Origin: Gammaproteobacteria bacterium
GTDB taxonomy: Bacteria > Pseudomonadota > Gammaproteobacteria > Thiohalomonadales > Thiohalomonadaceae
DNA length: 58,028 nt
Assembly: GCA_003252455.1 (NCBI GenBank)
Contig: QKED01000025.1
Coordinates: 1-58,028 of the forward strand
Direction: 5' to 3'
Of this stretch, positions 328 through 18,326 are shown in pieces. The first letter of the stretch is position 1, and the number at the start of each line of letters is the position of its first letter. The position numbers were made by a program, and so were the translations under genes. The notes beneath the pieces are model-generated. The model worked only from the letters and a program-made list of their open reading frames with translations. It did no database searches and had not been told where the DNA came from.

Positions 328-1374
328 TCAGCAGAGGTTGTTTACCCACTCGACGAATCGCTGCTCGACCGAGGCACTTTCGCCCGACACAGCCTTAGGC
401 ACAACCTGTTGCTGGCGCACATCCGACGGCCTTTCGCCGAAATAGCGCTGAAAGCTGTGGCAGAAGTGACTGTCGCTGTTAAATCCCAACGCGTAGGCGA
501 TCTCACGAACATTTTTGTACCGATGCGTACGCGAGCGCAGCATCTTATGCGCCTTGAGCAGGCGCTGCTCCTGTATAAACCGCGCAACCCCTCCATCCTT
601 ATCGAATAGTCGATAGAGGTAGCTACGCGACATTCTGAAGTGCGCCGCGATCATTTCAGGCGATAAATCCGGCACCTCCAGATTGTGCAAGATGTATTGA
701 CGCACCGTCTGATAGTTGGCCGCCTGTAAGCTGGCCGAGCGCTCTTCGCAGGGCATCTCTTGGGAGAAGTAGCTCCCCACCAAATTGGCCACACCCTCAG
801 CGACCGCAGCACTGGCGTCCGCTGTCATCTCCGGCATCGAGCGATAGAGGCTGAGGATATGCTCGCCCAAGAGCCTACCGAAGATCGAATCACGCGACAG
901 CACCGCACCATGACAGCGCTCGATGTTCGGGCATCGCGCGAGTAACACATGGCGAGGGATCACCATGTTGAGGTTGGAATAGTGATCGACGAAGCCGGCA
1001 CTGGGGCGTGCCAAATCGACCAAGATTATGTCACCCGCCCTGGCCGTGGCATCACTGCGCCGTGCCGACTGCACCGACGCTGTGCCCTGCAGGTAGAGCT
1101 GCACCAAGAAGTGCTCAAGCCCATCCTTGGCGATCAGCTTGTTGGTGCGATTTTGGAATTGCGCGCTGCTGTGGGCAGAAACCAGCATCATGTTGGAGAG
1201 GTGAAAGGCGGTCAGGTCGATACTGAAAGCCTCCCCCTGGGCCTTGTCGGGCAGTTCGATCTCCATCGAGGCATCGGCCATGGTCTCCCGCCACACCTCG
1301 AACCGCTGCTTACGCTCGACGTGATTCAGGTTGAAGCGGGTAACCGGGATCGTGCTTGCTTGAGTATTCACCAT
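328..1374 (-). CDS. AraC-family transcriptional regulator (left flank of surface-protein cluster)
   Basis: A 348-aa cytoplasmic DNA-binding protein. The N-terminal two-thirds resembles the ligand/oligomerisation half of AraC_binding_2-type regulators, with a stretch reading LVQLYLQGTASVQ and later AGDIILVDLARPS. The C-terminal 100 residues form the paired helix-turn-helix domain, with MSRSYLYRLFDKDGG in the first HTH and YALGFNSDSHFCHSFQRYFG in the second. The ATG at 1374 is preferred over an upstream TTG because GGAG sits a few bases upstream. It is the last gene of a minus-strand cluster of GlyGly-CTERM and PEP-CTERM genes and mirrors a second AraC gene at the other end, so it probably regulates them (inference). 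A partial match to the cluster promoter element (TTGCCT followed by GTC, 1398-1411) lies next to its ribosome binding site and could serve autoregulation. The inducer is unknown. Confidence 0.9.
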   Translation of the reverse strand: MVNTQASTIPVTRFNLNHVERKQRFEVWRETMADASMEIELPDKAQGEAFSIDLTAFHLSNMMLVSAHSSAQFQNRTNKLIAKDGLEHFLVQLYLQGTASVQSARRSDATARAGDIILVDLARPSAGFVDHYSNLNMVIPRHVLLARCPNIERCHGAVLSRDSIFGRLLGEHILSLYRSMPEMTADASAAVAEGVANLVGSYFSQEMPCEERSASLQAANYQTVRQYILHNLEVPDLSPEMIAAHFRMSRSYLYRLFDKDGGVARFIQEQRLLKAHKMLRSRTHRYKNVREIAYALGFNSDSHFCHSFQRYFGERPSDVRQQQVVPKAVSGESASVEQRFVEWVNNLC

Positions 1375-1483
1375 TAGCTCCAGGCCCAACCCTTAGATTG
1401 CCTCCGCGTCCTTGCGTGACGCGCCGGACACGCTTGTCACTCCATGCGTACAGCCTCGTCTGTTCCCGAGGGTACTTGACCCC

Positions 1484-2620
1484 TCAGCCGTGCAGGCGTC
1501 GCCTGCCCCATATTGCCAGTGGCACCAGCAACCACACCAACGCCCCGCCGCCACCGCTTGAGGAGGTCGTGCCACTACTCACCACACCGGCGGCGATCTG
1601 CTTCGCCTCGCCCCAGGTGTAGCCGAGGCTGGTGGGCGGATTGCTGTAGCCGTAGGTGGTGTCGCCCCATTCGTCATACCACTCCCCCTCGAACATCAGC
1701 TCCAGCTCGATGGCGCTGGCGTCGAAGCCCAGCGCCGCCTTGGCGGCGAGGTCGGCATCGGTGAAGTCGATGTTGGGCATCCAGTGGGCCTGGGTGATCG
1801 TCGGCAGGCCGCTGAGGGTCTTCATCTCCATGTAGTCCATGAGGATGACCACATCGGGATCGGCCATGTCGTAGGCGTTGGTGAAGATCTGCAGGGCGTC
1901 ACCGGGCGCCAGGTAGCGGCTCCCCAGTCGGTTGTCGTTGTCGTCGTAGACATCGATGGAGAAATCCAGCACCTGCTCGTCATTCTCGTCCATGACGAAC
2001 CAGAGTTCGGCCCACGCCGCCTCCTTCGCCCACTGTTCCGCCGGATAGCTCTCACCGGCCTGACGGTAGAGCAGATAGCCGACACGATAGAGGCGTCCGG
2101 ACACGGCAGGTAGCTCACCGACATCGGGCTCATAGTGGGCGTGCCAAGGCTGGGCCGGGAGCAGGCGCGGCACGCCATCGCCCAGGTCGATCCAGAAGAG
2201 CTTGCCGTCCCACTGCCCTAGGCTGTAGTGGTTGGCCTCTATCTCATCGGTGAAGAAGCCGCGCAGCAGCACCTGATACTCCAGCCCCTGCTCGTCCAGA
2301 TAGGGGAAGCTGAGCCAGCCGGTGACGAAGTCCCACGCACCACGAAACTCCCCCAGCGGGGTGACGCCCTGTGAGCCATCGGTGGCGGGGAGGGCCCCGA
2401 GCAGCGGGATGCCTTGTTCGGGTGCGCCCTGCGCACCCGCAACCACCCCCGCCCCACGCGGCTTGCTCGGTAAATGGCGATAGAGGACGGTGTCAGGCCC
2501 GTTGTCGGCCGAAGTATTCGACATTCGAAGCTCCACTACGATCGCCAGTGCCGGTTGAATATCGAGCAATAACAGGGTTGCCGCGAGGATCAACGCGGCG
2601 TAGCGCAAGGAATGGTTCAT
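1484..2620 (-). CDS. GlyGly-CTERM secreted protein, paralogue 1
   Basis: A 378-aa exported protein of unknown function. It starts with a signal peptide (cleavage likely after QPALA near residue 26). It ends with a tripartite sorting tail: a Ser/Gly run SSSGGGG, a hydrophobic helix ALVWLLVPLAIW and the basic end GRRRLHG. That is the GlyGly-CTERM signal which, in families studied, is processed by rhombosortase after type II secretion. The body shares nearly all of a core of about 300 residues with the genes at 2796 and 6582, including GEFRGAWDFVTGWLSFPY, GQWDGKLFWIDLGDGVPR and AELWFVMDENDEQVL. The ATG at 2620 is chosen because GGAG lies about 9 bases upstream; an ATG at 2635 is possible. No copy of the shared promoter element precedes it. 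It starts 175 bp after paralogue 2 and is probably cotranscribed. Confidence 0.85.
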   Translation of the reverse strand: MNHSLRYAALILAATLLLLDIQPALAIVVELRMSNTSADNGPDTVLYRHLPSKPRGAGVVAGAQGAPEQGIPLLGALPATDGSQGVTPLGEFRGAWDFVTGWLSFPYLDEQGLEYQVLLRGFFTDEIEANHYSLGQWDGKLFWIDLGDGVPRLLPAQPWHAHYEPDVGELPAVSGRLYRVGYLLYRQAGESYPAEQWAKEAAWAELWFVMDENDEQVLDFSIDVYDDNDNRLGSRYLAPGDALQIFTNAYDMADPDVVILMDYMEMKTLSGLPTITQAHWMPNIDFTDADLAAKAALGFDASAIELELMFEGEWYDEWGDTTYGYSNPPTSLGYTWGEAKQIAAGVVSSGTTSSSGGGGALVWLLVPLAIWGRRRLHG

Positions 2621-2795
2621 CTTTAGCATCTCCATATGTGAGGGAACGCGACCCACCGAGCGATCAGGAGACTCGGTGCAGCCGCCTCTTGGCTTGCCTT
2701 CGGGCGCGGGCGATGTCGTGCGTCGCCACCCTCGCCCGTTACTCCGTTCGAGCGGCGCCCGCTCCCCAGGCGTCCCGCTCGGCGTCTCGACACGC

Positions 2796-3941
2796 TCAGC
2801 CGACCAGCCCGCCAGCGCCCCTGTGCAGGCGCCGCCCGGCCACCAGGGCGAGGGGCAGCAGCAGCCACACCAGCGCACCGCCACCACCGCTGGAGGAGGC
2901 CGTACTACTGCTCACCACACCGGCGGCGATCTGCTTCGCCTCGCCCCAGGTGTAGCCGAGGGCGGTGGGCGGGTTGCTGTAGCCGTAGGTGGTGAAGCCC
3001 AAATCGTCGTACCACTCCCCCTCGAACATCAGCTCCAGCTCGATGGCGCTGGCGTCGAAGCCCACCGCCGCCTTGGCGGCAAGGTCGCTGTCGGTGAAGT
3101 CGATGTTGGGCATCCAGTGGGCCTGGGTGATGGTCGGCAGGCTGTTGAGGGTCTTCATCTCCATGTAGTCGATGAGGATCACCACATAGGGGTCGGCCAT
3201 ATCGTAGGCGGTGGTGAAGATCTGCAAGGAGTCACCGGCGGCCAGGTAGCGGCTCTCCAGGTAGTCGCCGTTGTCGTTGAAGAGATCGATGGAGAACTCC
3301 AGCACCTGCTCGTCGTTCTCGTCCATCACGAACCAGAGCTCGGCCGTCGCGGCTTCATCCGCCCACTGGTCCGCCGGATAGCTCACACCGGCCTGACGAA
3401 AGAGCAGATAGCCGACGTGGTAGAGGCGACCAGACACGGCGGGCAGCTCGCCGGGTTCGGGCACGTAGTTGGACTCCCAAGGCTGGGCCGGGAGCAGGCG
3501 CGGCACGCCGTCGCCCAGGTCAATCCAGAAGAGCTTGCCGTCCCACTGCCCCAGGCTGTAGTGGTTGGCCTCGCTCTCCTCGGTGAAGAAGCCGCGCAGC
3601 AGCACCTGCACCTCCTCTCCGTCGTCATCCAGATAGGGAAAGCTGAGCCAACCGGTGACGAAGTCCCACGCACCGCGAAACTCACCGAGTAGGGTGACGC
3701 TCTGCGTGCTGTTGCTGGTGGGCAGGGCCCCTAACAGCGGGGCCGCCTGCTCCTGTGCGGTCGGAGCAACCATGCTCGGACCCCGCGGCTTGGTAGGCGT
3801 GTGACGATAGCGGCTGACCGACGGGCTCTCATCGCCCGAGGTCTGAAATGGGAGGTTTAGGATTGCCGACGCCGGTTGCATACCGAGCAGCAGCAGCAGG
3901 GTCACGCACCAGAGTGTGACGGGGGCGTTGCGTTTACGCAT
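2796..3941 (-). CDS. GlyGly-CTERM secreted protein, paralogue 2
   Basis: A 381-aa exported protein. The signal peptide ends in GMQPASA (residues 1-26). A variable, probably disordered stretch follows, with PTKPRGPSMVAPTAQEQ. The conserved core of this cluster's family runs from about residue 70, and the tail is SSSGGGGALVWLLLPLALVAGRRLHR plus a short GAGGLVG extension. The core is acidic and aromatic-rich with no cysteines and no enzyme motif I recognise, so an adhesive, structural or ligand-binding role outside the cell is more likely than catalysis (inference). The start codon has GGAG at good spacing. The shared promoter element lies at 4056-4120, so this is probably the first gene of a two-gene transcript with paralogue 1. 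Very similar DNA in the three paralogues suggests recent duplication or gene conversion. Confidence 0.87.
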   Translation of the reverse strand: MRKRNAPVTLWCVTLLLLLGMQPASAILNLPFQTSGDESPSVSRYRHTPTKPRGPSMVAPTAQEQAAPLLGALPTSNSTQSVTLLGEFRGAWDFVTGWLSFPYLDDDGEEVQVLLRGFFTEESEANHYSLGQWDGKLFWIDLGDGVPRLLPAQPWESNYVPEPGELPAVSGRLYHVGYLLFRQAGVSYPADQWADEAATAELWFVMDENDEQVLEFSIDLFNDNGDYLESRYLAAGDSLQIFTTAYDMADPYVVILIDYMEMKTLNSLPTITQAHWMPNIDFTDSDLAAKAAVGFDASAIELELMFEGEWYDDLGFTTYGYSNPPTALGYTWGEAKQIAAGVVSSSTASSSGGGGALVWLLLPLALVAGRRLHRGAGGLVG

Positions 3942-4055
3942 GATGGGTTACTCCGTGAAGTGGCAAAGGTGGGGCTTTCGCGGGGAGCAGGCGCTCAACA
4001 GGCGCCCCCTCCCGAAAGTCCCGATGGGCGCTGGCGCGCCCACCGCCTGATCGCT

Positions 4056-4120
4056 ATTTAACGCGCGAGGGCATCCCTGGCCCTAGCGTGTTTGTCTACG
4101 ACGCGTTGTCTCAGTGTCTC
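4056..4120 (-). promoter_or_regulatory. Shared cluster promoter element, copy 1 (for GlyGly paralogue 2)
   Basis: On the + strand: ATTTAACG at 4056, GTCTAC at 4094, then after 6 bp TTGTCTCAGTGTCTCAG at 4106. Offsets are 38 bp from ATT to GTCTAC and 50 bp to TTG, the same as in copies 2-4. In gene orientation the order is AGACA, GTAGAC about two helical turns downstream, then a CGTTAAAT box as candidate -10. No good -35 hexamer lies 17 bp upstream of that box, which suggests activator dependence. Confidence 0.6.
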
Positions 4121-4169
4121 AGCCGCTGCGCGAAGGGCGACATAGCGCACACTCGCGCGCGGAGCGGCC

Positions 4170-4799
4170 TCACACCATGCCCGCGTCCAGCAGGCGCCGA
4201 CGCCGACGCATGGCCAGCGGGAAGGCGAGCCCGAGCAGCCCCACCGCGCCCAGGGCCGAGGGCTCGGGGATGGAGGCGAGGTTCTGGGTGGTGATGTTGG
4301 TCGCGAGGTAGGGGTCGGCGAACGAGACCCCGACACCATCGACGTACTCCTTGATGTACACATCGCCCTCACCCGCTCCCCAGGAGTCGATGTTGTAGAG
4401 GCTATAGGTGACGCCATGCGAGAGCCCCTGAGTGTCCCAAGGGTCGTTATCCCAGTTACCGACGATATCCCCCGCACCTAGCGTGGTATCGAAGGCAAAG
4501 TCGACGAAGAGGCGCTCGTTACCCCCCAGCGACTGCACGGAACCGCCGAGGATGGCCACATCGACAAAGTCAGCCGTACTGCCGATGTAGGCGGTGATGA
4601 TCCAGTTGTCCAAATCGGATTCGGTGCCGCTCACCGCATCGGTGCTCCAGATGAACTCCAAGCTGGTCCAGTTCCAGGGGTTCGCTTCGAGGTCGAGGGT
4701 GGTACGAAAGTCGGCGGCCTGGGCCGGGGCCAGCGTGGCGAGTAGCAGCGCGGTGGCGATGCCTTTCGGGCGGAAAACGGACTTGAGCAGGTGCTTCAT
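4170..4799 (-). CDS. PEP-CTERM sorted secreted protein, paralogue A
   Basis: A 209-aa exported protein of unknown function. The signal peptide ends near ATLAPAQA (residue 29). The middle is beta-rich and acidic, with NPWNWTSLEFIWSTDAVSG and GDVYIKEYVDG. The C-terminus is a classical PEP-CTERM tail: IPEPSALGAVGLLGLAFPL followed by MRRRRRLLDAG. Such tails are known to be handled by exosortases, and no exosortase gene is visible here. The gene at 5297-5932 is a paralogue across its whole length. Their sorting-signal DNA (4194-4272 here, 5327-5405 there) is identical over 79 bp although the bodies have diverged. The start at 4799 has GAGG upstream, and its own copy of the shared promoter element lies at 4870-4936. 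It lies between GlyGly-CTERM genes. Confidence 0.85.
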   Translation of the reverse strand: MKHLLKSVFRPKGIATALLLATLAPAQAADFRTTLDLEANPWNWTSLEFIWSTDAVSGTESDLDNWIITAYIGSTADFVDVAILGGSVQSLGGNERLFVDFAFDTTLGAGDIVGNWDNDPWDTQGLSHGVTYSLYNIDSWGAGEGDVYIKEYVDGVGVSFADPYLATNITTQNLASIPEPSALGAVGLLGLAFPLAMRRRRRLLDAGMV

Positions 4800-4869
4800 C
4801 GGATTGCCTCAATATTCTTGTTGAGTAGTGTTGGTGTGTAGCGCTACGTAAACACACCTATGACGGTGC

Positions 4870-4936
4870 ATTAGACGTCATCGATAACCGAGATGTATGT
4901 CACCGTTGTCTACTGACGATTGCCTGTCTGTCTCGG
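4870..4936 (-). promoter_or_regulatory. Shared cluster promoter element, copy 2 (for PEP-CTERM paralogue A)
   Basis: On the + strand: ATTAGACG at 4870, GTCTAC at 4908, 6-bp gap, TTGCCTG at 4920 and CTGTCT ending at 4933. In gene orientation it reads CCGAGACAGACAGGCAA, then GTAGACAACGGTGACATAC, then a CGTCTAAT box. It aligns without gaps to copy 3, including GGTG just after GTAGAC. The AGACA repeats 22-23 bp apart are typical of AraC-family direct-repeat operators (inference). Confidence 0.65.
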
Positions 4937-5040
4937 CAGTGAGGGTCCGCACTGCTCACCGCCGTCGGGTCGACTTGAGTGGTCGACCTGGCGCAGGGCG
5001 GGCGTGGTACCGCCGGTGCATCGGCTCACCGTGGTCATTC

Positions 5041-5190
5041 ATCAGATAGCCAACCGGTGACGAAGGCGGCTGAGTGCCAGGCTCTCAGCGCCAGAGGCGC
5101 CAGATGAGGCGAGTAGGCATGCCGACGCCGGTTACATACCGAGTCGCAGCAGGCGTGTCGCCGCGCACCGGAGTGTGACCGGGGGATTGG
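5041..5190 (-). pseudogene. Remnant of a fourth GlyGly-CTERM gene (signal-peptide end)
   Basis: Read on the minus strand, 5115-5190 closely follows the start of GlyGly paralogue 2. It shares GTCACACTC, GGTGCG, CTCGGTATG and AACCGGCGTCGGCA in the same order, corresponding to the encoded signal peptide ending GMQPASA. The equivalent of the Gln codon is TAA here, the start codon region is lost, and most of the body is deleted. A second short match (AGATAGCCAACCGGTGACGAAG near 5045, the SFPYLD/VTGW region of the family) sits directly behind it. The gene is therefore internally deleted, frame-disrupted and clearly non-coding. It shows that the family was larger. Confidence 0.7.
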
Positions 5191-5296
5191 GCCTAAGCCG
5201 GAGGAGATTCCCTCAAAGAGGGCTGTCCGGGGCCGAGCTTGCCTACGCGACAGGGGGGCGCCATTCGCTACCGGACAGGCGGGTCGGCAGGGGTGC

Positions 5297-5932
5297 TCAG
5301 GCCCGTGCAGCCTCCGGGGTCAGCAAGCGCCGACGCCGACGCATGGCCAGCGGGAAGGCGAGCCCGAGCAGCCCCACCGCGCCCAGGGCCGAGGGCTCGG
5401 GGATGTCGGCGAGGTTTTGCGTGGTGATGTGGGTCGAGACGTAGGGGTCGAAGGTCGAGACCGCAGCGCCATCGAGAAACGCCTTGATGTACACCTCGCC
5501 CGCGCCATGCCACCAAGTGTCGGCGTTGTAGAGGTTGTAGGTGACCCCGCTCGAGGTCGTCTGGGTGGTATAGGTGTCGTTGTCCCAGTAACCAACGATA
5601 TCCCCTGTGCCTAGGCCTGTATCGAAGGTGAAGTCGACGAAGCGGCGATCGTTGCCGCCCAGCGGCTGCACGGCACCACCCAGGATGACCGGGTCGACAA
5701 AGTCGACAGTCGTGCCGATGAAGGTGGTAATCACCCAGCTATCTAGGTCGGTCTCGCTGCCGCTCACGGCATCGGTGCTCCAGAGGAACTCTACGCGGGT
5801 CCAGTTCCATGGATTCGCAGCGAGGTCGAAGGTGGTGCGATAGTCGTCGGCCTGGGCCGGGGCCAGCGTGGTGAGTAGCAGTGCGGCGGCGATGCTGTGC
5901 GCACGGGAGAGCGGCTTGAAGCGGTTATGCAT
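5297..5932 (-). CDS. PEP-CTERM sorted secreted protein, paralogue B
   Basis: A 211-aa exported protein paralogous to the gene at 4170-4799. It shares DLAANPWNWTRVEFLWSTDA and WVITTFIGTTVDFVDPVILG with close equivalents there. The signal peptide ends near TTLAPAQA. The tail is IPEPSALGAVGLLGLAFPL plus MRRRRRLLTPEAARA. The ATG at 5932 is preferred because a signal peptide begins directly there; a longer reading frame upstream (to 6019) would bury it behind about 29 unrelated residues. The shared promoter element lies at 6002-6067, giving a leader of about 65 nt. Expression is probably coordinated with the GlyGly-CTERM genes. Function is unknown; a small beta-sandwich matrix or surface protein would fit. 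Confidence 0.85.
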   Translation of the reverse strand: MHNRFKPLSRAHSIAAALLLTTLAPAQADDYRTTFDLAANPWNWTRVEFLWSTDAVSGSETDLDSWVITTFIGTTVDFVDPVILGGAVQPLGGNDRRFVDFTFDTGLGTGDIVGYWDNDTYTTQTTSSGVTYNLYNADTWWHGAGEVYIKAFLDGAAVSTFDPYVSTHITTQNLADIPEPSALGAVGLLGLAFPLAMRRRRRLLTPEAARA

Positions 5933-6001
5933 AGGATTGTCTGCGCTGATGGGTAAAGGAGTGGCTGCGCGCCACGGCAGTGGCACGCCAATTTCCCGCG
6001 C

Positions 6002-6067
6002 ATTAGACGGCATCGACACCGGCGCTGTATTTCACCTCTGTCTACAGGTGTTTGCCTGACTGTCTAG
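6002..6067 (-). promoter_or_regulatory. Shared cluster promoter element, copy 3 (for PEP-CTERM paralogue B)
   Basis: On the + strand: ATTAGACGG at 6002, GTCTAC at 6040, 6-bp gap, TTGCCTGACTGTCT at 6052-6065. Spacings are identical to copies 1, 2 and 4. In gene orientation: TAGACAGTCAGGCAA, then GTAGACAGAGGTGAAATAC, then CCGTCTAATG. It is the closest match to copy 2. Confidence 0.65.
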
Positions 6068-6129
6068 GCGGTGAATGTTCACAAAATTCGCCACCGCCGA
6101 GTCAGCGCCTGGGATTGTTAGCTAGGTTA

Positions 6130-6196
6130 TTAACGGCGTACAGAAAGACGCGCTGCCGTTAAGTTAGGCCTGGCCGGTGCACACGCCGAGGCGTGT
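6130..6196. repeat. Inverted repeats in the 5933-6581 intergenic region
   Basis: TTAACGGC at 6130-6137 is exactly inverted as GCCGTTAA at 6155-6162 with a 17-bp loop. Next, ACACGCC-GA-GGCGTGT at 6181-6196 is followed by ACTCCAGG. It has the same GA centre and the same ACTCCA flank as the palindromes at 1-241, so it is probably a diverged copy of that element. The rest of this 649-bp stretch shows only copy 3 of the promoter element and the hairpin at 6521-6550; I see no gene in it. Confidence 0.55.
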
Positions 6197-6520
6197 ACTC
6201 CAGGTATTCGGCAGTGGGTTCACCTTGACTCAACGGCAGTGACCGAAAGCCTGGGTACGATTCAGCGCAGATGGGGGCGTCAGCGCCCTCTTTGCCCGCA
6301 CAGAAGTGCTCAGTCGACCAGGGCTTGTGACGCGTTAGCAGGGGAAGGGGCGACTGCACGCTCCCGTGCCACACCGAGTAGCGGACTCGGGAAGATGACG
6401 AGAGACAGACGAAAACGCGGGAATGGGGAGCGTGGGCAGGCGTGAGCGGGGTGATGGGTGCTGGGCCCGTGGCCCGGCTCTGGTGTGGTCGGTGGCGTGG
6501 ACGGAGGCGTGGACCAGCCC

Positions 6521-6550
6521 CTGGGTCTCGACCTCCGGCACGAGACCCAG
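6521..6550 (-). terminator. Strong hairpin downstream of GlyGly paralogue 3
   Basis: CTGGGTCTCG at 6521-6530 and CGAGACCCAG at 6541-6550 form a perfect 10-bp stem with a 10-nt loop, 31 nt after the stop codon of the gene at 6582. No U-run follows on either strand, so it is not a canonical intrinsic terminator. It may stabilise the mRNA 3' end or act as a protein-binding palindrome. Confidence 0.45.
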
Positions 6551-6581
6551 CCCATCGCACAGACCGGTGTGCGGTGGGTGC

Positions 6582-7820
6582 TCAGCCGAGCCAGCCGACA
6601 CGGCGTCGCCACACCCCGAGCCCCAGGGGCGGCAGCAGCCACCAGAGCGCACCACCGCCGCCGCTACTGCTGCTGGAGCTGCTGCTCACCACGCCGCTGG
6701 CGATCTGCTTCGCCTCGCCCCAGGTGTAACCGAGGGCGGTGGGCGGGTTGCTGTAGCCGTAGTAGGTATCGGTGTAATACGCATCGCTGTCGTAGTCGTA
6801 CCAATCGCTGTACCACTCGCCCTCGAACATCAGCTCCAGCTTGATGGCGCTGGCGTCGAACCCGGCGGTTGCCCTGGCGGCGAGGTCGCTGTCGGTGTAG
6901 TCGATATTGGGTAGCCAGTGCGAGCGGGTGATGGTCGGCGCACCACTCAGGGTCTTCATCTCCATGTAGTCGATGAGGATGACGATATTCGGGTCGGCCA
7001 TGTCGTAGGCGGTGGTGAAGATCTGCAGGGCATCACCGGCGGCCAGGTAGCGGCTCTCGATGAAGTCGCCGTTGTCGTCGTAGAGGTCGAGGGAGAACTC
7101 CAGCACCTGCTCGTCGTTCTCGTCCATGACGAACCAGAGTTCAGCGTTGACCGCCCCACTCACCCACTGGTCGGTCGGGTAGCTCTCACCCGCCTGGCGA
7201 TAGAGCAGATAGCCCACCCGGTAGAGGCGTCCGGCCTGCGCGGGCAGCTCACCCTCGTCCGGCTCATAGCTGTTGTTCCAGGGCTGGGCGGGCAGCAGGC
7301 GTGGTACGCCGTCCCCCAGGTCGATCCAGAACAGCTTGCCGTCCCACGCCCCTAGGCTGTAGTGGTTCGCCTCGGTCTGTTCGGTGAAGAAGCCGCGCAG
7401 CAGCACCTGAAGCTCCTCGCCGTCCTCGTCGATATAGGGGAAGCTGAGCCAGCCGGTGACAAAATCCCAAGCACCGCGAAACTCCCCCTCCAGGGTGACG
7501 CTGTTCGCCGCACCGCCGCTGGGGGCAAGCCCCATCGGCAGGGCGCCCTGCCCCGGCTCGTGCTCAAGCGTGTCGGGGACGACACGCGGTTTGCTCGCCT
7601 GTTGATGGTAGTGCGTGACGGCGTGGGCATTTTCACCGCTCCACCAGACACCGGCCACCACATTGCAACTGCCACTGCCGTCGTACTGTACCGACGGGGC
7701 ATTGTCGCCGGAGACCTGCGTGTTGCAGTGGATTTTGAGTGCCGACGCGGGCTGGGCAACGAGCAGCAGACAGAGGCCCGCTGCGAGCCAGGATGGGAGG
7801 TTGAAGAGGGGCCGACGCAT
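6582..7820 (-). CDS. GlyGly-CTERM secreted protein, paralogue 3
   Basis: A 412-aa exported protein and the longest of the three family members. The signal peptide ends in VAQPASA (about residue 27). The N-terminal variable part has two Cys residues (KIHCNTQVSG and GSGSCNVV) absent from the other paralogues and could form a disulphide. The conserved core starts at about residue 95 (LEGEFRGAWDFVTGWLSFPY). Before the tail there is an insertion rich in Tyr/Asp (DYDSDAYYTDTYYGYSN). The tail is a seven-Ser run, GGGG, ALWWLLPPLGLGVW and RRRVGWLG. The ATG at 7820 has AGGAG upstream. The shared promoter element is at 7921-7984, a leader of roughly 100 nt. Function is unknown; context says surface or secreted, controlled by a flanking AraC protein. 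Confidence 0.87.
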   Translation of the reverse strand: MRRPLFNLPSWLAAGLCLLLVAQPASALKIHCNTQVSGDNAPSVQYDGSGSCNVVAGVWWSGENAHAVTHYHQQASKPRVVPDTLEHEPGQGALPMGLAPSGGAANSVTLEGEFRGAWDFVTGWLSFPYIDEDGEELQVLLRGFFTEQTEANHYSLGAWDGKLFWIDLGDGVPRLLPAQPWNNSYEPDEGELPAQAGRLYRVGYLLYRQAGESYPTDQWVSGAVNAELWFVMDENDEQVLEFSLDLYDDNGDFIESRYLAAGDALQIFTTAYDMADPNIVILIDYMEMKTLSGAPTITRSHWLPNIDYTDSDLAARATAGFDASAIKLELMFEGEWYSDWYDYDSDAYYTDTYYGYSNPPTALGYTWGEAKQIASGVVSSSSSSSSGGGGALWWLLPPLGLGVWRRRVGWLG

Positions 7821-7920
7821 GCTGCTACTCCTGAGAAACGTTGAAGCATCACGCTGCGTGGCCGAGCCGGGTAAGGCGGTGAGCGAGGGTGACACCTCGA
7901 TGACATGAGGGGTTGCGTGT

Positions 7921-7988
7921 ATTTGACGCCATGCAGCCACTGTGCGTCTTCCACCTGTGTCTACGAACGCTTGCCTGTCTGTCTAGAC
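7921..7988 (-). promoter_or_regulatory. Shared cluster promoter element, copy 4 (for GlyGly paralogue 3)
   Basis: On the + strand: ATTTGACG at 7921, GTCTAC at 7959, 6-bp gap, TTGCCTGTCTGTCTAGAC at 7971-7988. Offsets are 38 and 50 bp, as in the other copies. Gene-oriented reading: GTCTAGACAGACAGGCAA, GTAGACACAGGTGGAAGAC, then GGCGTCAAAT as candidate -10 region. Confidence 0.65.
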
Positions 7989-8070
7989 GGGGTGATTTCC
8001 CACCGCTTGATTCGATCGGGTCCAGTTCGCAGTGGCTTTTCGGCAGGTATCTTCGCGCGCGGAGGCGACC

Positions 8071-9222
8071 TCAGAGCCCATCGAGGGGCGCGGCGAAGCC
8101 CTCGATCAGGCGCCTAAAGGGGAGCAGTGCGTCACGCTCGCTCAACGGACTGGTGCTGGCCTGGGCGGCGATCTCCAGGGCGTCGCTGCGCGCCTGGCCG
8201 GGGGCCATGCCGAAGCGGTCGCGAAAGCGGTGGCAGAAGTGCGACTCGCTGGAGAAGCCGCAGCTGTAGGCGATGGTCGAGAGGCTCTCTTTGATCGCGG
8301 CACGCGAGATGAGCAGGCGCAGGCTGCGCTGTAGGCGGCGCTCCCAGATGAAGTTGGCCACCCCGCCGTGGGGCTGAAAGAGGCGGTAGAGCAGCGCGCG
8401 GGAGATGCGAAAGGTCTGGGTCAGCTCCAAGATTTCGATCGGTCGCTCCAGGTGTTGGTCGATGTGCCGGGTGATGGCGGCGAGCAGCGCCTGGTTGGTC
8501 GGTGCCTGAAACTGCTCGTGGATCGAGGGGTCGTCACCGAGCCAGCCGCCGAGCAGGCCGAGGGTGGCGTGTACCGAGATCACCCCCTGCTCCGGGGTCA
8601 GTGCGGGCATGCGCTGCCAGAGGTTGACGAGGTGGTCGCGCACCATCTGCACCAGCGGGTTGTGACCGGGGATGCGCCGCCCATGCAGTCGTACCAGGAT
8701 GGCGCTCAGCTCCGGGTTGACGCTTTTGGGCAGCAGCAGGGTGAGGTTACGAAAGTCGTCGTTGAGCATGCGGTGGGGCTGGCTCAGGTCGATCACCAGC
8801 ATGTCCCCGGCGCTGAAGCGCTCCTCACCGTGGATGCGCCCGCCCCCGGCGAGGAAGAACTGCACCAGGATCAGGTCCTGCTCCTCCTGCACCATCAGCA
8901 GGTGGTCACGCACGAAGTGCTGGGTGGGTGCCTCGGTGAGGCCGAGCACCGCCGCACCGAGGTTGGCCGCGCAGACACGCGAGCGGCGCCCTTCAGTTGG
9001 CCGCCCCTCCACGGAGGGCTGCACATCGAAGAAGATGCGCATGTTGTCGCGCCACGCCTCGTCGGCGATGGCCGGATCGAGGGCGTGGCTGTCGAACAGC
9101 GAAAAGGGGATCACCATGGCCGCGTCCGCCTCGGGGAACCGAGTCTCACCCTGGGTTACCGGGTTCTCCTGGGTCCGCTGGGGGCGTGCCGCTGCGTCAT
9201 CTTTGGGTATTGTTGTGGGCAT
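8071..9222 (-). CDS. AraC-family transcriptional regulator (right flank of surface-protein cluster)
   Basis: A 383-aa regulator of the same architecture as the one at 328-1374. The N-terminal sensing half contains LILVQFFLAGGGRIHGEE and AGDMLVIDLSQPHR. The C-terminal double HTH has FRISRALLYRLFQPHGGVAN and YSCGFSSESHFCHRFRDRFG. The ATG at 9222 is chosen (AAGG upstream); the open frame continues further upstream with no family-like sequence. The two regulators share the HTH pattern Y/SLxxxRLF-x3-GGVAxFI but are clearly diverged. Positions at both ends of the GlyGly/PEP-CTERM cluster make them the obvious candidates to bind the shared element. A sigma70-like promoter at 9380-9408 and a diverged copy of the element at 9542-9608 lie upstream. 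Confidence 0.9.
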   Translation of the reverse strand: MPTTIPKDDAAARPQRTQENPVTQGETRFPEADAAMVIPFSLFDSHALDPAIADEAWRDNMRIFFDVQPSVEGRPTEGRRSRVCAANLGAAVLGLTEAPTQHFVRDHLLMVQEEQDLILVQFFLAGGGRIHGEERFSAGDMLVIDLSQPHRMLNDDFRNLTLLLPKSVNPELSAILVRLHGRRIPGHNPLVQMVRDHLVNLWQRMPALTPEQGVISVHATLGLLGGWLGDDPSIHEQFQAPTNQALLAAITRHIDQHLERPIEILELTQTFRISRALLYRLFQPHGGVANFIWERRLQRSLRLLISRAAIKESLSTIAYSCGFSSESHFCHRFRDRFGMAPGQARSDALEIAAQASTSPLSERDALLPFRRLIEGFAAPLDGL

Positions 9223-9379
9223 GCACGCCTTTCTCAGCGAGTGGACCCCAGCGTCGCGCCCCCCGCGCGACACGGCTCGACGCCACACATGGGGTCGCTG
9301 ACCGGTCCGACATCGGGGAGGCCGAGCCAAGGGCGATCAAGGTCTCCGCGTGGTGGCCACGTATGTGTACAGCTGCGTC

Positions 9380-9408
9380 TATATATCTGGAATCGATCAT
9401 GCTGTCTA
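9380..9408 (-). promoter_or_regulatory. Candidate sigma70 promoter of the right AraC gene
   Basis: In gene orientation TAGACA (9408-9403) and TATATA (9385-9380) are separated by 17 bp. The sequence stands out as AT-rich in a GC-rich background. It would give a leader of about 150 nt for the regulator starting at 9222. Confidence 0.4.
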
Positions 9409-9541
9409 CGCCCTTTTCCAGGCAGGATCGCCCCATCGACGCGGTGGCGCAACGGCGCCACTATCGAGTCGCGGAGTACCCGTCAGGCACCGCATAGGGG
9501 ATACGTAGGGGATAAGAGTCGCATCGATGGTCTACCCGCGT

Positions 9542-9608
9542 ATTACACGACCACGGCCCTCCTATAACACTGCACGTATGTCTCCAGTGGCTTGTATCAG
9601 TGTCTCAC
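9542..9608 (-). promoter_or_regulatory. Diverged fifth copy of the shared element, far upstream of the right AraC gene
   Basis: On the + strand: ATTACACG at 9542, GTCTCC at 9580, 6-bp gap, TTGTATCAGTGTCTCAC at 9592. The 38 and 50 bp offsets are exactly kept, and CAGTGTCTCA matches copy 1. It is about 320 bp from the AraC start codon, so it could drive a long-leader transcript or act as an autoregulatory site. The 9223-9751 stretch otherwise shows only the candidate promoter at 9380 and no convincing gene. Confidence 0.45.
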
Positions 9609-9751
9609 CAGGCCGTAAAACGTGATCTAACACACACATAGCCGCGAATGGAAGCCCGCTGCGACACCCAGACAAGGGCAGCGAAACCGTGAGACAAGCG
9701 CCAGCGAGCTGGAGCCGCTAAGATGGATGCCCCCTAGGTGGACGCCCTGCC

Positions 9752-10495
9752 ATGCCCAGCCCACAGCCACGACCCACTCAAGCCGCTGCGCCGCCCCTCG
9801 CCCCCGTCGCACGGTCAGCCAGTGCGCAGGGGGCGCAGGCAACCCCGACACACAAGGCGAAGCACCGAAGCGATGGCCATCGCCCCTGGCTCACCCCGCT
9901 GCTGCGCGCCCTGGTCTCGCGCGGCATGCTGCTCTTCTTCTACCGCCTCTGTCGGGGTCGGGTGGTGGACCTGGCGGGGGTGGAGCGGCTCGACCACGGC
10001 TTCGTCATCGTCGCCAACCACGTCAGCTACATGGACTGGATCCTGCTCTGGGGGCTGTTCCGCTACCGCTACGGCATCCAGCTCACCTTCCTCGCCAAGG
10101 AGCGCCTCTTCCGCCACTGGTTCTGGGGCAAGCTGGTCACCTGTAGCTGCTGCGTGCGCGTCGCCGACGACGGCCAGAGCGTCGCCTCGCTGAGCGACTA
10201 CAAGCGCCTCAAGCAGGCGCGCCACATCGCCATCTTCCCCGAGGGGACGCGCTCGCGCGATGGCCGTCTCGGCCCGTTCAAGCCGGGCGCGGCACAGCTC
10301 GCCAAGCGCCTCGGCCTACCCATAGTCCCAGTGGCGCTCAACGGGCTCTACCAGGTCTGGCCCGCCGAGCGCACCCTGCCCCGCCCCGCCCCCTGCGAGC
10401 TGGTCATCGGCGCCCCGCTGCCAACCGATGCGCACGAGAGCGAGGCGGCCCTCACCGAGCGCCTGCGCCAGGCGGTGGCCCGACTCGCTCGCTGA
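9752..10495 (+). CDS. 1-acyl-sn-glycerol-3-phosphate acyltransferase family protein (PlsC-like)
   Basis: A 247-aa membrane-associated acyltransferase, expected to transfer an acyl group to lysophosphatidic acid or a related lysolipid. The PlsC block I motif is NHVSYMDW (NHx4D, near residue 89). Block III is FPEGTRSRDGRLGPFKPGA (about residues 165-183), and block IV is IVPVALNG. The first 45 residues are Pro/Ala/Gln-rich, unlike the catalytic body. An internal start (for example at MLLFF, residue 59) is too late to include the whole fold, so the annotated start or one near residue 40 is likely. The gene is divergent from the AraC cluster and 102 bp upstream of a large unknown membrane protein. 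It could be a second plsC or belong to an ornithine-lipid or lipid A-type pathway; specificity cannot be read from sequence. Confidence 0.88.
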   Translation: MPSPQPRPTQAAAPPLAPVARSASAQGAQATPTHKAKHRSDGHRPWLTPLLRALVSRGMLLFFYRLCRGRVVDLAGVERLDHGFVIVANHVSYMDWILLWGLFRYRYGIQLTFLAKERLFRHWFWGKLVTCSCCVRVADDGQSVASLSDYKRLKQARHIAIFPEGTRSRDGRLGPFKPGAAQLAKRLGLPIVPVALNGLYQVWPAERTLPRPAPCELVIGAPLPTDAHESEAALTERLRQAVARLAR

Positions 10496-10597
10496 GCCCC
10501 GCGTTCGCGCACAACCTAATCCCGGCCCAGGTCACGCCCCACCGCCCCCAATGCCTGCTAGGCTCTCACCATCCCACACGGATCGCTGGAGCCCGTC

Positions 10598-13500
10598 ATG
10601 ACCCTGCCCCGCCTGCTGTTCAGCTGCCTTCTCCTGCTGCTCTCCACCGCCCACGCCGTGGAGCCGAGTATCCCCGCCCCCCTCGAACCCTGGCGCGACT
10701 GGGTGGTGCAAGACCAACCCGAGCGCGACTGCCCCTACCTCTACAACGCCCGCGAAGAGCGCCTCTGCCGCTGGCCGAGCGCACTTCAGCTGACGCTGGA
10801 CGAGCGCGGCGGGCGCTTCGAGCAGCGCTGGAGCGTGCAGGCGAAGGGCTGGGTGGCGCTACCCGGTGGCGAGCGCCTCTGGCCGCAAGAGGTGAAAGTG
10901 GACGGGCAGACGGTCGCGGTGGTGGCGCAAGAGGGCATCCCGCGCGTGGCGCTGACGCCGGGGGAGTGGCGCATCAGCGGCACCTTTCACTGGGATACAC
11001 CGCCGGACTACCTGCCGATCCCCGCCGCCAGCGGCCTGCTCGACCTGACCCTCAACGGCCAGCCGGTGGCGCTGCCGGAGCTGGACAGCGCCGGGCGCCT
11101 CTGGCTGCGCCGCCCGCGCAGCAGCGACGCGGCGGAGGGCGACCGTCTCGGCCTGCGCGTCTTCCGCAAGGTCGACGACGACATCCCGCTCCAGGTCGAG
11201 ACGCGCATCGAACTCAACGTCTCGGGCCGCTCACGCGAGGTGCTGCTCGGGCCGGTGGTCGGCGCCGAGGCGATCCCACTGACCCTCGATAGCCCACTCC
11301 CGGCACGCCTGGAGCCGGACCAGCGCCTGCGCGTGCAGGTGCGCCCCGGTCGCTGGTGGCTCACCCTCACCACGCGCGCGCCGGGGCCGGTGAGCGCGCT
11401 GACTCGCCCGGTAACGCAGGGCGACTGGCCCGAGCAGGAGGTGTGGTCACTCTTTGCGCGCCACGATCTGCGCCAGGTGAGCGTGCGCGGCGCCGAGGCG
11501 GTCGACCCGCAGCAGACCGACCTGCCCAAGGAGTGGCGCGCCCTGCCCGCCTACCTGATGCTCGCCGACAGCCGCCTCACCCTCGACGAGCAGCGCCGTG
11601 GCGACCCGCAGGCGGCCCCTGACCAGCTCGACTTAGAGCGTGAACTCTGGCTCGACTTCGACGGCGGCGGCTACACCCTGCGCGACCACATCAGCGGGCG
11701 CCTGTCGCACAGCTGGCGCCTGGAGATGGACGCCCCCGCCAGCCTGGGTCGGGCTGTGGTCAACGGCGACGCCACCCTGATCACGCGCCTGCCCGAGCGT
11801 CCCCCTGGGGTGGAGATCCGCCACGGCGACCTCAATCTCGTGGCCGACGGACGCATTGAGGGGCCGCTACGCACGCTACCGGCGGTGGCCTGGCTGAGCG
11901 ACGTCAACCGCCTCGCCACCACCCTGCACCTACCGCCGGGGTGGCGCCTGTTCAGTGTCAGCGGGGTCGACGGCGCGAGCCAAACCTGGCTCCAGCAGTG
12001 GACCCTAATGGACCTCTTCCTGGTACTGATCATCGCCCTCGCCACGCGCTACCTGCGCGGACGCCTCTGGGGGCTGGTGGCGCTGGTGACCCTCACCCTC
12101 ACCTACCACGAGTCCGACGCGCCGCGCATCATCTGGCTGCTGCTGCTCGCCTGGCTCGCGCTGCTCAAGGTGCTGCCGAGCGGACGCGCGCGGCGCACCA
12201 TCGGCCTGCTGCACAAGGCGACCCTCGCCAGCCTGGTGATCATCGCCCTGCCCTTCCTCGTCGACCAGGTGCGCCAGGGGCTCTACCCGGTGCTCGAACA
12301 GCGCTGGGCCGAACTCGGCGGCGAAAACAGTTACGGCTACGCCCCCGAGCCGCTGGTCGAGAGCCTGGGCAACGCCAGTTACGAGCAGGCCTCGCGCCTC
12401 TATCGCGGCAAGCAGGTGGCCGACGAGCAGGTGCAGGCGCCGCCGAGCAAAAAGGCCCTGCGCTACAACGCCGAGACCAAGGTGCAGACCGGCCCCGGCA
12501 TCCCCGCCTGGGATTGGCACGAGGTGCGTCTAGAGTGGAACGGCCCGGTGGAGCAGGGCCACAGCGTCGAGCTCTACCTCATCCCGCCCTTCGGCAACAC
12601 CCTGCTCGCCTTCGCCCGCGTGGCGCTCATCGTGCTCTTCGCCCTCGGCCTGCTCGGCCTCAGCTACAAACCTCACCCCGTCAGCGGGCGCCGCTGGCAG
12701 TTCCTGCTGCTATTGGCGCTGCTCACGCCGCTGCTCGCCAGCCACGCGCCGCGCGCCGAGGCGGAGGTGATCCCGCCCCAGGGGATGCTCGACGAGCTGC
12801 GCGCGCGCCTGCTCACCCCGCCCAGTTGCCTGCCCGCCTGCGCCGACCTCGGGCGCCTCGCCCTCACCTACGATGCCGACAACCTCACCCTGCGCCTGGA
12901 GCTGCACAGCGGCGCCGACATCGCCGTGCCGCTACCCGGTCGCGCCGGGCAGTGGCTGGCCCAGGAGGTGCGCCTCGACGACGCCACCACCCCGGCGCTC
13001 AGCCGCGACGGCGACGGCCAGCTCTGGGTGCACCTGAGCGCCGGGGTGCATCAACTGCTGCTGCGCGGCCCGCTGCCCCGGCGTGAGAGCGTAATGCTCC
13101 ACCTGCCGCTGCCGCCGCGTCAGCTGGAGTACGCCGGTGACGGCTGGCAGCTGGCCGGGCTCGACGAGCAGGGGCGCCCAGGGCGTCAGCTGGAGCTGCG
13201 CCGCCTCGCCGAACGTGGCGCCGAGACGCCGGAGCAGACGCTCCAGCCCGGCGCCCTGCCGCCGCTGTTGCAGATCAGCCGCACCTTGGCGATCGGCCTG
13301 GAGTGGGGCGTCACCACCCAGGTGGTGTGGGCCAACCCCGGCCCCGACGGCGTAGTCACCGAGATCCCGCTGCTCGCGGGCGAGTCGGTCACCAGCGGCC
13401 AGGTGCAGGTGCGCGAGGGCAAGGTGATCGCCAACCTGCCCCCCGGCAGCCGCAGCCTGGTGTGGCACTCGGTGCTGGAGCCGACCACCCGGCTCACCCT

Positions 13501-15721: not shown

Positions 15722-18223
15722 CTACTCGATCGCCTGCCGGTGCAGGTCGGCATACCCCTGGGCGCTGTAGATCTCCGACTCCAACAACTCGGCGGCCTGG
15801 GAGGGGCTACTCGGGCAGCCCTCCATCTCGACCACGACTTGGGGTGTGGAGGTCGAGATGTCGTAGAGCACGCAGGCCACACCCGTGTCACCGGTCTGCT
15901 CCATCAAGACCCGATCCCCTCGGCTGGCAAGGAGACTCAGCGTGCCCCAAGTGCCCATATCCCACTCCGCCGCCACAGCGAGCGTCGATGCGGTGTTGAA
16001 GCGGTACAGGTGGTAGGGCGCCGCCTCGGCATCAGGGTCGTCGAACCAGGATAACTCACCGTCCGTACCCAGCGGGTCGAACGCGAAATACTCCACCTGG
16101 CTCATGTTGCACAGCAGCAGCAGGCTCTGGCCACCCTCAAGGTGGGCCTTGGCTTGAGAACTCGGACACGCGGTAGAGAGCTGCGCGACCACCTGGGCGT
16201 TGTCGCCATCGAGGGTGATCAGGTTGAGCTGCTCGGTCTCCGCACCCGCTTCCAGGGTGATGAGCTGCCCGGCGAGGTCGAAGCCGATGGGGTTACCTTG
16301 GATGTCGGCCTGAGAGGCCAATTGCGCACCCGTGGCATCGAGCTGCCAGCCGATCAGCTGCACGCTGCCGTCCGACATCCACTCCTCGTCGAGACGCTCG
16401 GCGGCCAAGTAGAGGTAGTCGCCCTGCAGGATGGCACCGGACTTCTTCTCCCACTGGTAGCCCTGGTCGAGCGCGGGAAACACCAGCTCCATCGGCTCCC
16501 ACAACTGGCCACTACTGCGCGCCATGACCTGGATGCGGGTCGACTCATCCGAAGAGACGAACTGAAACGCCACGACGTGTTGCTCATCCGCCAGCAGTTG
16601 GTCATAGGCCTGGCTGAGCGCCACGCCCTGCAGCGGCGTGTGCAAATCATCCAGCCCATAGCGATAGAGGTACTGAAACCCCGTTGCCCCAGGCTCCTTG
16701 GCGCCAGCCCAGAGGCCATTTTCATCCAGGCTCAGCCACTGCAGGTCGACCGCCAACTTCAGCCGCCCCGGCGACTGCACGTCCCCCTGCGCCCAATCGA
16801 CGATGGTGAACCACTGGTCACCGACCACGGCGAGCCGTTGCGCACCGAGCGATGCGATCCGCTCGACCTTGCCCGGCAGGGTGGTGGTACCGATCGCGAC
16901 GAAGCGGTCGCTGGAGAAGTCGAGGAGCTGGAGCATGTTCGGCACGTCCAGCTCCCAGGTGGAAATAGGCACTGCGGCCAACCGATGTTCCCAATCGAGG
17001 TGCATGGCGCGCTGGTCATCCAAGGCCGCGGAGGTCGTATAGCGCGCCTGGTCGAGAAGCGGCCTGTAGCGATCCAGCTCGACCGGGGTGTCGGGGTCGC
17101 TGACATCGAACAGGAGTGCCGCGACACGGCTGGTGAAGTTCTCACCGTCGCTCGGCGTGGGGTTCTGATCTTTGCCCAGCGCAAAGAGACGATCGGCATG
17201 GAAGAAGAGCTTTTCGGCGACGTTGGGGACGGCCAACTGACCCTTGACCTTGGGTTCGGCTGGGTCCGTCAGGTCGAGCAACCAGAGGGGGTCGGAGCGT
17301 TCAAAGCTGACCAGGTAGGCGGTATTGTCGGTAAAGACCGTCGTGTACAGCTCCTTACCGGGGGCCAACGCCTCGACCCGTGAGCGCTCATGCCACTGCG
17401 CGGGCTCTCCCTGCAGCTCGAAATTGGCGAAGGTGGCGCCCTCCTCACCGGACCCCTGCGGGAGATAGACGACCCGCAGCCGCTGCTCGTGCACATCGAC
17501 ATAGAGCTCGCTCGGGACATTGCCAGCCAGCGCCAGCTCCGGTAACGCATGCAGTGGATCGGCCGCATCACGCAGGTCGAAGAGGTGCAATTGTGTACTA
17601 CTCGAATCACCCTCGGGACTCCCGAGCAGTACGAGGTAGTCATCGACGAATCCGGCCGAGGGGCTGGCGAACGACACACTCGCACTGGCCACCTCGGTGA
17701 GGGTGCCCGCACCAATCCGTAGCGCCGTAACGCGCATTGCGTTCAGGGAGTCCACGCTCATGAGATAGAGGATCTCGCCGCGACGTGCCGAATCGTAATA
17801 GCTGTCGGGGAGTTCGTAGGCTTGAGCGAGTTCGAACGCACCTTCGACGAGATGGAACAGGTCGACACGCAGGCCCGAATCGGCCCTGTTCGCCTCGATC
17901 AGCAGATACTCCTCGTTGAGTTGGAAGAGGCTCATCGGCGAATAGGTGGTGCTCACCTCAGCCACGACACGCGGCGCATCGACCTGCGCGGCATCGACCA
18001 GTTGCAGACGCTGCGCGTCGTGATTGACCAGCAGAATGCGCTCGCCCAGGCGCAGCAGGTCGGTCGCGAACTCGGTCGCGGGAAGAGCCTCATCCGTACT
18101 GCCATCGACGGGGTTCGCTGCACCCGTGCCAGCATCGCTAGTACGATCGAGCAGATCACAACCTGAAAGCAACAACAGGCACGTCAAACTGAGTAGAGAG
18201 AAGAGGGATTTCGCGCTTGGCAT
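15722..18223 (-). CDS. Beta-propeller domain lipoprotein
   Basis: An 833-aa exported lipoprotein. The signal peptide has a lipobox LLSGC with the acylated Cys at residue 22, followed by a Ser/Thr/Gly/Asp linker. The rest is beta-rich with repeated blade-like segments such as LLVNHDAQRLQLVDAAQ, DNTAYLVSFERSDPLWLLDL, LFALGKDQNPTPSDG and VAALLFDVSDPDTPVELDRY. This fits the secreted C-terminal beta-propeller (PF09826-type) family. No catalytic motif is visible. It is probably anchored in the outer membrane or periplasmic face and binds a protein or polymer. The ATG at 18223 is chosen because the lipoprotein signal begins there, with AGGTG upstream; the open frame extends further without family sequence. 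A half-site resembling the cluster element in region 1 lies about 90 bp upstream. Confidence 0.85.
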   Translation of the reverse strand: MPSAKSLFSLLSLTCLLLLSGCDLLDRTSDAGTGAANPVDGSTDEALPATEFATDLLRLGERILLVNHDAQRLQLVDAAQVDAPRVVAEVSTTYSPMSLFQLNEEYLLIEANRADSGLRVDLFHLVEGAFELAQAYELPDSYYDSARRGEILYLMSVDSLNAMRVTALRIGAGTLTEVASASVSFASPSAGFVDDYLVLLGSPEGDSSSTQLHLFDLRDAADPLHALPELALAGNVPSELYVDVHEQRLRVVYLPQGSGEEGATFANFELQGEPAQWHERSRVEALAPGKELYTTVFTDNTAYLVSFERSDPLWLLDLTDPAEPKVKGQLAVPNVAEKLFFHADRLFALGKDQNPTPSDGENFTSRVAALLFDVSDPDTPVELDRYRPLLDQARYTTSAALDDQRAMHLDWEHRLAAVPISTWELDVPNMLQLLDFSSDRFVAIGTTTLPGKVERIASLGAQRLAVVGDQWFTIVDWAQGDVQSPGRLKLAVDLQWLSLDENGLWAGAKEPGATGFQYLYRYGLDDLHTPLQGVALSQAYDQLLADEQHVVAFQFVSSDESTRIQVMARSSGQLWEPMELVFPALDQGYQWEKKSGAILQGDYLYLAAERLDEEWMSDGSVQLIGWQLDATGAQLASQADIQGNPIGFDLAGQLITLEAGAETEQLNLITLDGDNAQVVAQLSTACPSSQAKAHLEGGQSLLLLCNMSQVEYFAFDPLGTDGELSWFDDPDAEAAPYHLYRFNTASTLAVAAEWDMGTWGTLSLLASRGDRVLMEQTGDTGVACVLYDISTSTPQVVVEMEGCPSSPSQAAELLESEIYSAQGYADLHRQAIE

Positions 18224-18309
18224 AGGGTTTTCACCTGGTAGGACACAGACCAATGGATTAGTAGACCTGATCCGACACCGTTTAGCATTGTCCAGATATC
18301 CCAAAACCA

Positions 18310-18326
18310 TTGCCTCAGTGTCTCCG
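18310..18326 (-). promoter_or_regulatory. Half-site of the region-1 element upstream of the lipoprotein gene
   Basis: TTGCCTCAGTGTCTCCG on the + strand is close to copy 1 of the shared element (TTGTCTCAGTGTCTCAG), and the similarity continues into GCTGCG. The GTCTAC half is not present at the expected offset, and an ATTAGTAGAC box lies at 53 rather than 50 bp. The rest of the 18224-18569 interval shows nothing else. Confidence 0.35.

Follow-up and report, generated by a model that had tools for sequence, protein, structure and literature searches.

What switches on a cluster of genes for C-terminally sorted surface proteins in a gammaproteobacterium of the family Thiohalomonadaceae? The question was raised by a 58,028-nucleotide stretch of DNA (the window; positions 1 to 58,028 of contig QKED01000025.1, assembly GCA_003252455.1), in which a reading of the letters alone (the sequence-only reading) had noticed a promoter element upstream of GlyGly-CTERM and PEP-CTERM genes and had proposed that it was activator-dependent. 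Each of these elements is probably an AraC/XylS-type class II activator promoter driven by one AraC-family activator, for which the regulator AraC2 is the most likely candidate, autoactivation of its own gene included. The observation of the sequence-only reading was right, and stronger than it had claimed, and its interpretation was largely right. A fifth site and a locus of AraC2 paralogs make the earlier, plausible proposal specific, with AraC2 as the candidate autoactivator, and the model is a prediction from one genome (4,580,717 bases in 118 contigs, 99.72% complete).

The four copies first described, at 4056, 4870, 6002, and 7921, are real, and ATT(A/T)(A/G)ACG is present at each of them, with GTCTAC at +38 bp and TTGYCT 12 bp beyond (50-bp offset). 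The gap in TTGYCT...TGTCT had been given as four bases and was counted as three. Moreover, the list of four was incomplete, as a fifth copy at 9542-9605 precedes AraC2. Four of the sites lie upstream of a minus-strand gene for a predicted sorted surface protein, and the fifth precedes a regulator gene. The elements and the genes concerned are as follows.

4056..4119, minus strand: promoter element 1, half-sites 4106-4120 and 4084-4098, -10 box TTAAAT at 4056-4061; upstream of GG2.
4870..4933, minus strand: promoter element 2, -10 box TCTAAT; upstream of PEP-CTERM gene 1.
6002..6065, minus strand: promoter element 3, -10 box TCTAAT; upstream of PEP-CTERM gene 2.
7921..7984, minus strand: promoter element 4, -10 box TCAAAT; upstream of GG3.
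9542..9605, minus strand: promoter element 5, -10 box TGTAAT; AraC2, with its start at 9222, begins about 320 bp downstream.
328..1389, minus strand: AraC1, AraC/XylS-family regulator (HTH_18 5e-17, AraC_binding_2 2.5e-10).
1484..2620, minus strand: GG1, GlyGly-CTERM-like paralog with no element of its own.
2796..3941, minus strand: GG2, GlyGly-CTERM-like surface protein with a hydrophobic N-terminus and an SSSGGGG-hydrophobic-RR tail.
4170..4799, minus strand: PEP-CTERM protein 1 (PF07589 18.3 bits, slightly under the cut-off of 20.7).
5297..5932, minus strand: PEP-CTERM protein 2 (PF07589 21.0 bits, above the cut-off of 20.7).
6582..7820, minus strand: GG3, GlyGly-CTERM-like surface protein, from its translation and tail.
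8071..9222, minus strand: AraC2, AraC/XylS-family regulator (HTH_18 9e-13, HTH_AraC 4.9e-9), with a start possibly as far upstream as 9330.

The pattern searches did not find the motif scattered over the genome, and all five matches lay inside this cluster. When the window was searched with up to 3 mismatches, 5 matches were obtained, compared with a mean of 0.05 and a maximum of 1 in 100 shuffles. Across the whole genome, the originally described pattern with up to 1 mismatch matched 4 times, at the four sites, and the reversed-pattern controls gave 0. The 3-mismatch match of the window search, at 9580, proved to be the fifth site; its geometry is complete, down to an ATT..ACG box at a distance of 38 bp. 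The 22 bases invariant among the five sites, again with up to 3 mismatches, matched 5 times in the genome, always in the cluster (reversed controls 0). As this consensus was built from the same five sites, the outcome amounts to an absence of further copies at that stringency. A 68-position profile, for which 150 of 514 first-look candidates were scored, recovered from the genome the five sites and a weaker one at 18262-18324, and nothing else at E ≤ 10. When the 15-base repeat part alone was used, two extra 2-mismatch matches appeared off the cluster in the same genome (C83:20959-20985 and C117:32519-32545). No Rfam match was found in window positions 1-20000.

The internal anatomy of the element was then determined in the gene (minus-strand) orientation, with the first A of AGACA labeled position 1. 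The element consists of two 15-bp direct repeats at a 22-bp pitch, approximately KAGACA-N4-GRCAA, followed by a TNTAAT-like -10 box; half-site 1 covers positions 0-14, half-site 2 covers 22-36, and the -10-like hexamer covers 59-64. All ten half-sites start with [GT]AGACA. The five upstream half-sites end with GRCAA or TACAA, and the five downstream ones are more variable. Half-site similarity was maximal at an offset of 22 (0.59), a value attained by 6 of 20,000 column shuffles; thus, the 22-bp direct repeat is unexpected from column composition. The common geometry of the five sites extends over 64 bp without a gap. Within it, the mean pairwise identity was 0.77 and 0.67 for the two half-sites and 0.84 for the -10 box, and outside these blocks it was 0.37 between the half-sites, 0.32 in the spacer, 0.33 in the upstream flank, and 0.26 in the downstream flank.

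Such similarity could also have come about by duplication or gene conversion of whole gene-plus-upstream units, with no regulator binding to them. The cluster did grow by duplication: the PEP proteins are 69% identical and the GlyGly-type proteins 70-76%, and a remnant of a GlyGly-type gene, lying at 5054-5194 on the minus strand in the interval from element 2 to PEP-CTERM gene 2 (54% identity across 46 residues, with one stop inside), indicates that the cluster was rearranged in this way. Over 104 nucleotides of upstream sequence, 4868 resembles 6000 at 73% and 7919 at 63%, and the sites at 4870 and 6002, which belong to duplicate genes, agree at 0.70 in the spacer and 0.51 in the upstream flank, reflecting partly shared descent. 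Pairs from unrelated units behave differently. For 4056 versus 6002, the spacer identity was 0.10 and that of the boxes 0.60-0.75, and when 4056 or 9542 was compared with 4870 or 6002 (four pairs), spacer and flanks reached 0.10-0.33 and half-sites and -10 box 0.53-0.88, with no indel. As these pairs are alike in the boxes and unlike in the spacer, conservation is selective. Moreover, AraC2 and the two surface-protein families are unrelated genes. Duplication as the sole cause is accordingly considered very improbable.

The position of the repeats relative to the -10 box bears on how the element may work. At spacings of 15-19 bp, the best -35 candidate matched 3/6 in all five sites, so that no recognizable -35 is present. 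Half-site 2 ends at position 36, while a -35 hexamer with a 17-bp spacer would occupy 36-41 by arithmetic; the proximal half-site is thus at or touching the -35 position, with the -10 box 22 bp beyond. In the proposed mechanism, two monomers of one AraC-family activator, AraC2, would bind the two 15-bp direct half-sites 22 bp apart. Since the downstream half-site ends where the -35 hexamer would begin, the bound activator would stand in for -35 recognition and bring the polymerase to the TNTAAT-like -10 box. Transcription is predicted to start 6-8 bases 3' of the CGTNNAAT box, and a start at position 71 would give AraC2 a leader of 313 nucleotides and each of the four surface genes one of 63-108 nucleotides.

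The same positions could instead serve AraC2 or another factor in repressing or toggling the genes. Sites next to the -10/-35 region can block polymerase, and autoregulation is frequently negative. On the other hand, the spacing fits a known activator position, and because no -35 is present, the promoter should be weak unaided. Repression or toggling was therefore judged quite unlikely, and activation by AraC2 is what we infer from the arrangement of the sites.

The known activator position is that of XylS at the Pm promoter. The XylS binding site is a pair of 15-bp direct repeats of the form TGCA-N6-GGNTA, in which the repeat nearer the promoter core overlaps the -35 by two bases, and Pm is described as being served by sigma-32 and sigma-38 polymerase (PMC5481539, PMC4225500). 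The present elements resemble it in their paired direct repeats of 15 bp, made up of A-box and B-box, in the proximal repeat at the -35, and in a regulator with two helix-turn-helix motifs (PMC5481539, PMC4225500). Unlike in Pm, the half-sites here read approximately KAGA-N6-GRCAA (ten half-sites) and not TGCA-N6-GGNTA, and in place of a catabolic operon the predicted targets comprise genes for surface proteins and for a regulator. The repeat pitch of XylS is 21 bp, compared with 22 bp here. As the element follows the XylS plan with other letters, it would work like Pm without being a XylS operator. The proposal of an activator-dependent promoter is thereby supported on three sides, namely, the 22-bp phasing of the 15-bp repeats, the poor -35, and the proximal half-site lying at the -35 as in XylS/Pm.

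Two AraC-family proteins flank the cluster, and either might bind the elements. Both scored above the cut-off with HTH_18 and HTH_AraC and gave weak matches below the cut-off to NCBIfam TIGR04094, and they are 28% identical to each other. AraC2 additionally reached 25.1 bits with AraC_binding_2 (cut-off 27) and 88.8 bits with the FeaR model (cut-off 199), both below the threshold. The earlier suggestion that the flanking AraC genes are involved is supported for AraC2, which has the fifth site upstream and diverged sites in a paralog locus, whereas AraC1 is without direct support as a binder.

The paralog locus is an 18.3-kb stretch of the same genome on contig C111, for which coordinates of locus L027 are used. 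It contains two tandem AraC2 paralogs (53-57% identity by local match, 51% and 55% in a multiple alignment). At 15075-17654 they adjoin a fourth GlyGly-type gene (GG4, 62%) and its neighbor, which encodes a trypsin/PA-domain protein whose C-terminal tail is similar and rich in glycine. A half-site matrix, for which the five window sites were the sole training set, was applied to the window, to this locus, and to nine other loci. The top two sites on C111 scored 28.9 and 22.7, and the next 10.3, compared with 1 score ≥20 and none ≥22 in 20 Mb of Markov sequence used as a control. One of the two (14848-14911) precedes the AraC2-paralog pair, and the other (12012-12075) precedes genes at 7817-11957 for an Lnt-like protein (LNT_N and CN_hydrolase), a B12-radical-SAM DUF4070 protein, and a patatin. 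The third-ranked site, just upstream of GG4, is weak and was not used as evidence. Since a site precedes an AraC2-type gene in both loci, the AraC2 type is the likely binder, and the diverged sites beside the paralogs point to AraC2 as an autoregulated one. GAGTACAGGGCTCGCCCTGTAC-type repeats were also seen near the end of this contig (about 17900-18317), and a similar translated stretch lies at about 152-445 of the window.

AraC1 may nevertheless be the binder. In that case, the activator would be encoded at the end of the element-1 operon, closing a different feedback loop, and AraC2 would be a mere target. AraC1 is a full AraC-family protein, and GG2, GG1, and AraC1 are consecutive on the minus strand with no terminator-like or promoter-like call on that strand between them, although calls of this kind are no more frequent here than expected by chance. 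Because the three genes share a strand with no terminator-like call, read-through from element 1 is likely; GG1 would then be transcribed from that element in one GG2-GG1-AraC1 operon, in which AraC1 is probably the downstream gene. The diverged elements, in contrast, adjoin paralogs of AraC2 and not of AraC1, and element 5 precedes AraC2, from which AraC1 is far removed in sequence. AraC1 as the activator is hence regarded as unlikely, and AraC2 remains the preferred candidate.

The nature of the predicted target proteins was also considered. For GG1, GG2, and GG3, no NCBIfam match was found at E ≤1, and for GG2 and GG3 no Pfam match at E ≤1, so that the GlyGly label rests on their tails; an AlphaFold model of GG2 was uninformative (mean pLDDT 32). 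The genome encodes one rhombosortase above the cut-off (141.6 bits versus 84; control genomes above the cut-off, 0/14) and one exosortase above the cut-off (85.3 bits versus 25.7; control genomes, 1/14). The PEP-CTERM tails and the genomic exosortase together mark the PEP-CTERM proteins as predicted exosortase substrates.

The control described for PEP-CTERM genes is that by sigma-54 and PrsR (PMC1569441), and these two genes could be governed in that way, the element being incidental. A putative PrsR/sigma-54 site was reported before 99 of 167 proteobacterial PEP-CTERM genes (PMC1569441), and here sigma-54-like matches of 8/12 that keep GG and GC precede the start codon of gene 1 by about 303 bp and that of gene 2 by about 365 bp, figures that carry no chance control. 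Against this, none of the 53 PrsR-model matches in the genome was above the cut-off (best 395 versus 502.6 bits), and the best sigma-54-like match overall, 9/12 at gene 1, is without the GG/GC pair. PrsR/sigma-54 control was accordingly judged very unlikely, the least credible of the explanations weighed. The PrsK/PrsR system is alike in that a common upstream element coordinates genes for sorted surface proteins (PMC1569441), while the element here has a TNTAAT-like -10 and extends to GlyGly-type genes.

Streptococci are known to carry AraC-type genes next to those of sorted surface antigens; there, the AraC-family gene of the Spy1337/R28 pair (YSIRK/LPXTG) adjoins a gene for a C-terminally sorted surface protein (PMC7098570). 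That case differs in involving a Gram-positive sortase and one divergent gene pair, whereas here repeated promoter elements are common to the predicted substrates of two other sorting systems. In searches of an open-license literature collection, judged by titles and abstract openings, no such regulation was found for AraC with PEP-CTERM, rhombosortase, or exosortase.

The distribution of relatives in other genomes was determined as follows. A contig scan with query A1 gave no relative, and one with query A4 gave three weak AraC matches (27-32% identity). AraC2 was found at E ≤1e-30 in at least three of 369 genomes of the class, with up to 5 candidates scored per genome, and A4 at E ≤1e-35 in at least 14 of 398 genomes of the phylum, with up to 4 candidates scored per genome; both counts include the own genome. 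Nine loci around distant AraC relatives (L033, L034, and L059-L065) were chosen for the half-site scan; they represent G008 and six of the 13 genomes that the A4 search gave besides the own one. Loci L031 and L032 of genome G154 were scored with the full 80-position matrix only, and the best values were 5.0 and 6.9. A crude search for sorting-tail-like protein ends at the nine loci gave some matches.

Several observations weigh against the model of AraC2-driven activation. These include the shared descent of the sites at 4870 and 6002 and the candidacy of AraC1; in addition, a single genome supplies all the evidence on the element. Among 20 genomes of the family, the GG2 protein was found in the own genome only (the gene-order search covered the same 20 genomes), and the half-site scan of the nine loci revealed no comparable element, the best score being 15.7 in a genome of 39% GC. 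Against the general pattern, the C111 sites show 3 mismatches, and at this stringency 3 reversed controls match as well; both were missed by the 68-position profile, and their -10 is one base nearer than in the window sites. GG1 and the GG4 paralog lack a clear element of their own. Finally, the 5' leader predicted for AraC2 is long.

Two further candidate targets were found in the window, together with their putative elements.

15722..18223, minus strand: beta-propeller lipoprotein (PF09826 1.5e-29), with a lipobox-like LLSGC in the translation.
18260..18323, minus strand: probable weaker element, first half-site intact and second degenerate, 36 bp before the lipoprotein start.
9639..9724, plus strand: possible divergent element ahead of the PlsC-like gene; three stretches in 22-bp phase resemble half-sites (9639, 9661, 9683), and a box reading TAAGAT occupies 9719-9724.
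9752..10495, plus strand: PlsC-like acyltransferase (PF01553 1.1e-26).

The lipoprotein gene is a probable target. Its element has 2 mismatches and scored 22.2 with the half-site matrix at 18288 (minus strand), and its profile E value was 0.0075 in 76 kb and 0.46 genome-wide. The PlsC-like gene is a possible divergent target; the half-site matrix gave 21.7 at 9661 and 15.3 at 9639 (plus strand), and the 68-position profile missed the element. The claim that the element controls GlyGly/PEP-CTERM genes is too narrow because AraC2 and perhaps lipid-related genes are included. Downstream of the PlsC-like gene, positions 10598-15596 (plus strand) encode a 1353-residue protein with no Pfam match followed by a T2SSF-domain protein. 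Elsewhere in the window, three histidine kinases in a row, each with an SBP_bac_3 match and PAS domains, lie at 32065-42744 (plus strand).

Taken together, one AraC-type regulator probably turns on the surface-protein cluster and itself jointly. The common promoter would drive GG3 and each of the PEP-CTERM genes, as well as an operon of GG2 with GG1 to which AraC1 probably belongs, and AraC2 would fire its own promoter in positive autoregulation. As the elements are common to GlyGly-type and PEP-CTERM genes, substrates of two C-terminal sorting systems would be switched on together. This yields a concrete candidate operator, the 37-bp direct repeat, and a named candidate activator, and at the C111 locus a regulator and the site that it binds may have diverged jointly. 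More tentatively, AraC2 and its two paralogs might be lineage-specific, autoactivating XylS-like regulators that switch on rhombosortase and exosortase substrates along with envelope lipid enzymes, these being the PlsC-like acyltransferase in the window and the Lnt-like acyltransferase, the radical-SAM protein, and the patatin in the paralog locus. If this doubtful extension were true, the cell would follow one program in building a dedicated surface coat and in anchoring or modifying it with lipid. An AraC-type regulator appears to unite in a single local regulon the substrates of two C-terminal sorting systems that are separate from each other, and the joint control of two uncharacterized surface-protein families suggests that they have a common function.

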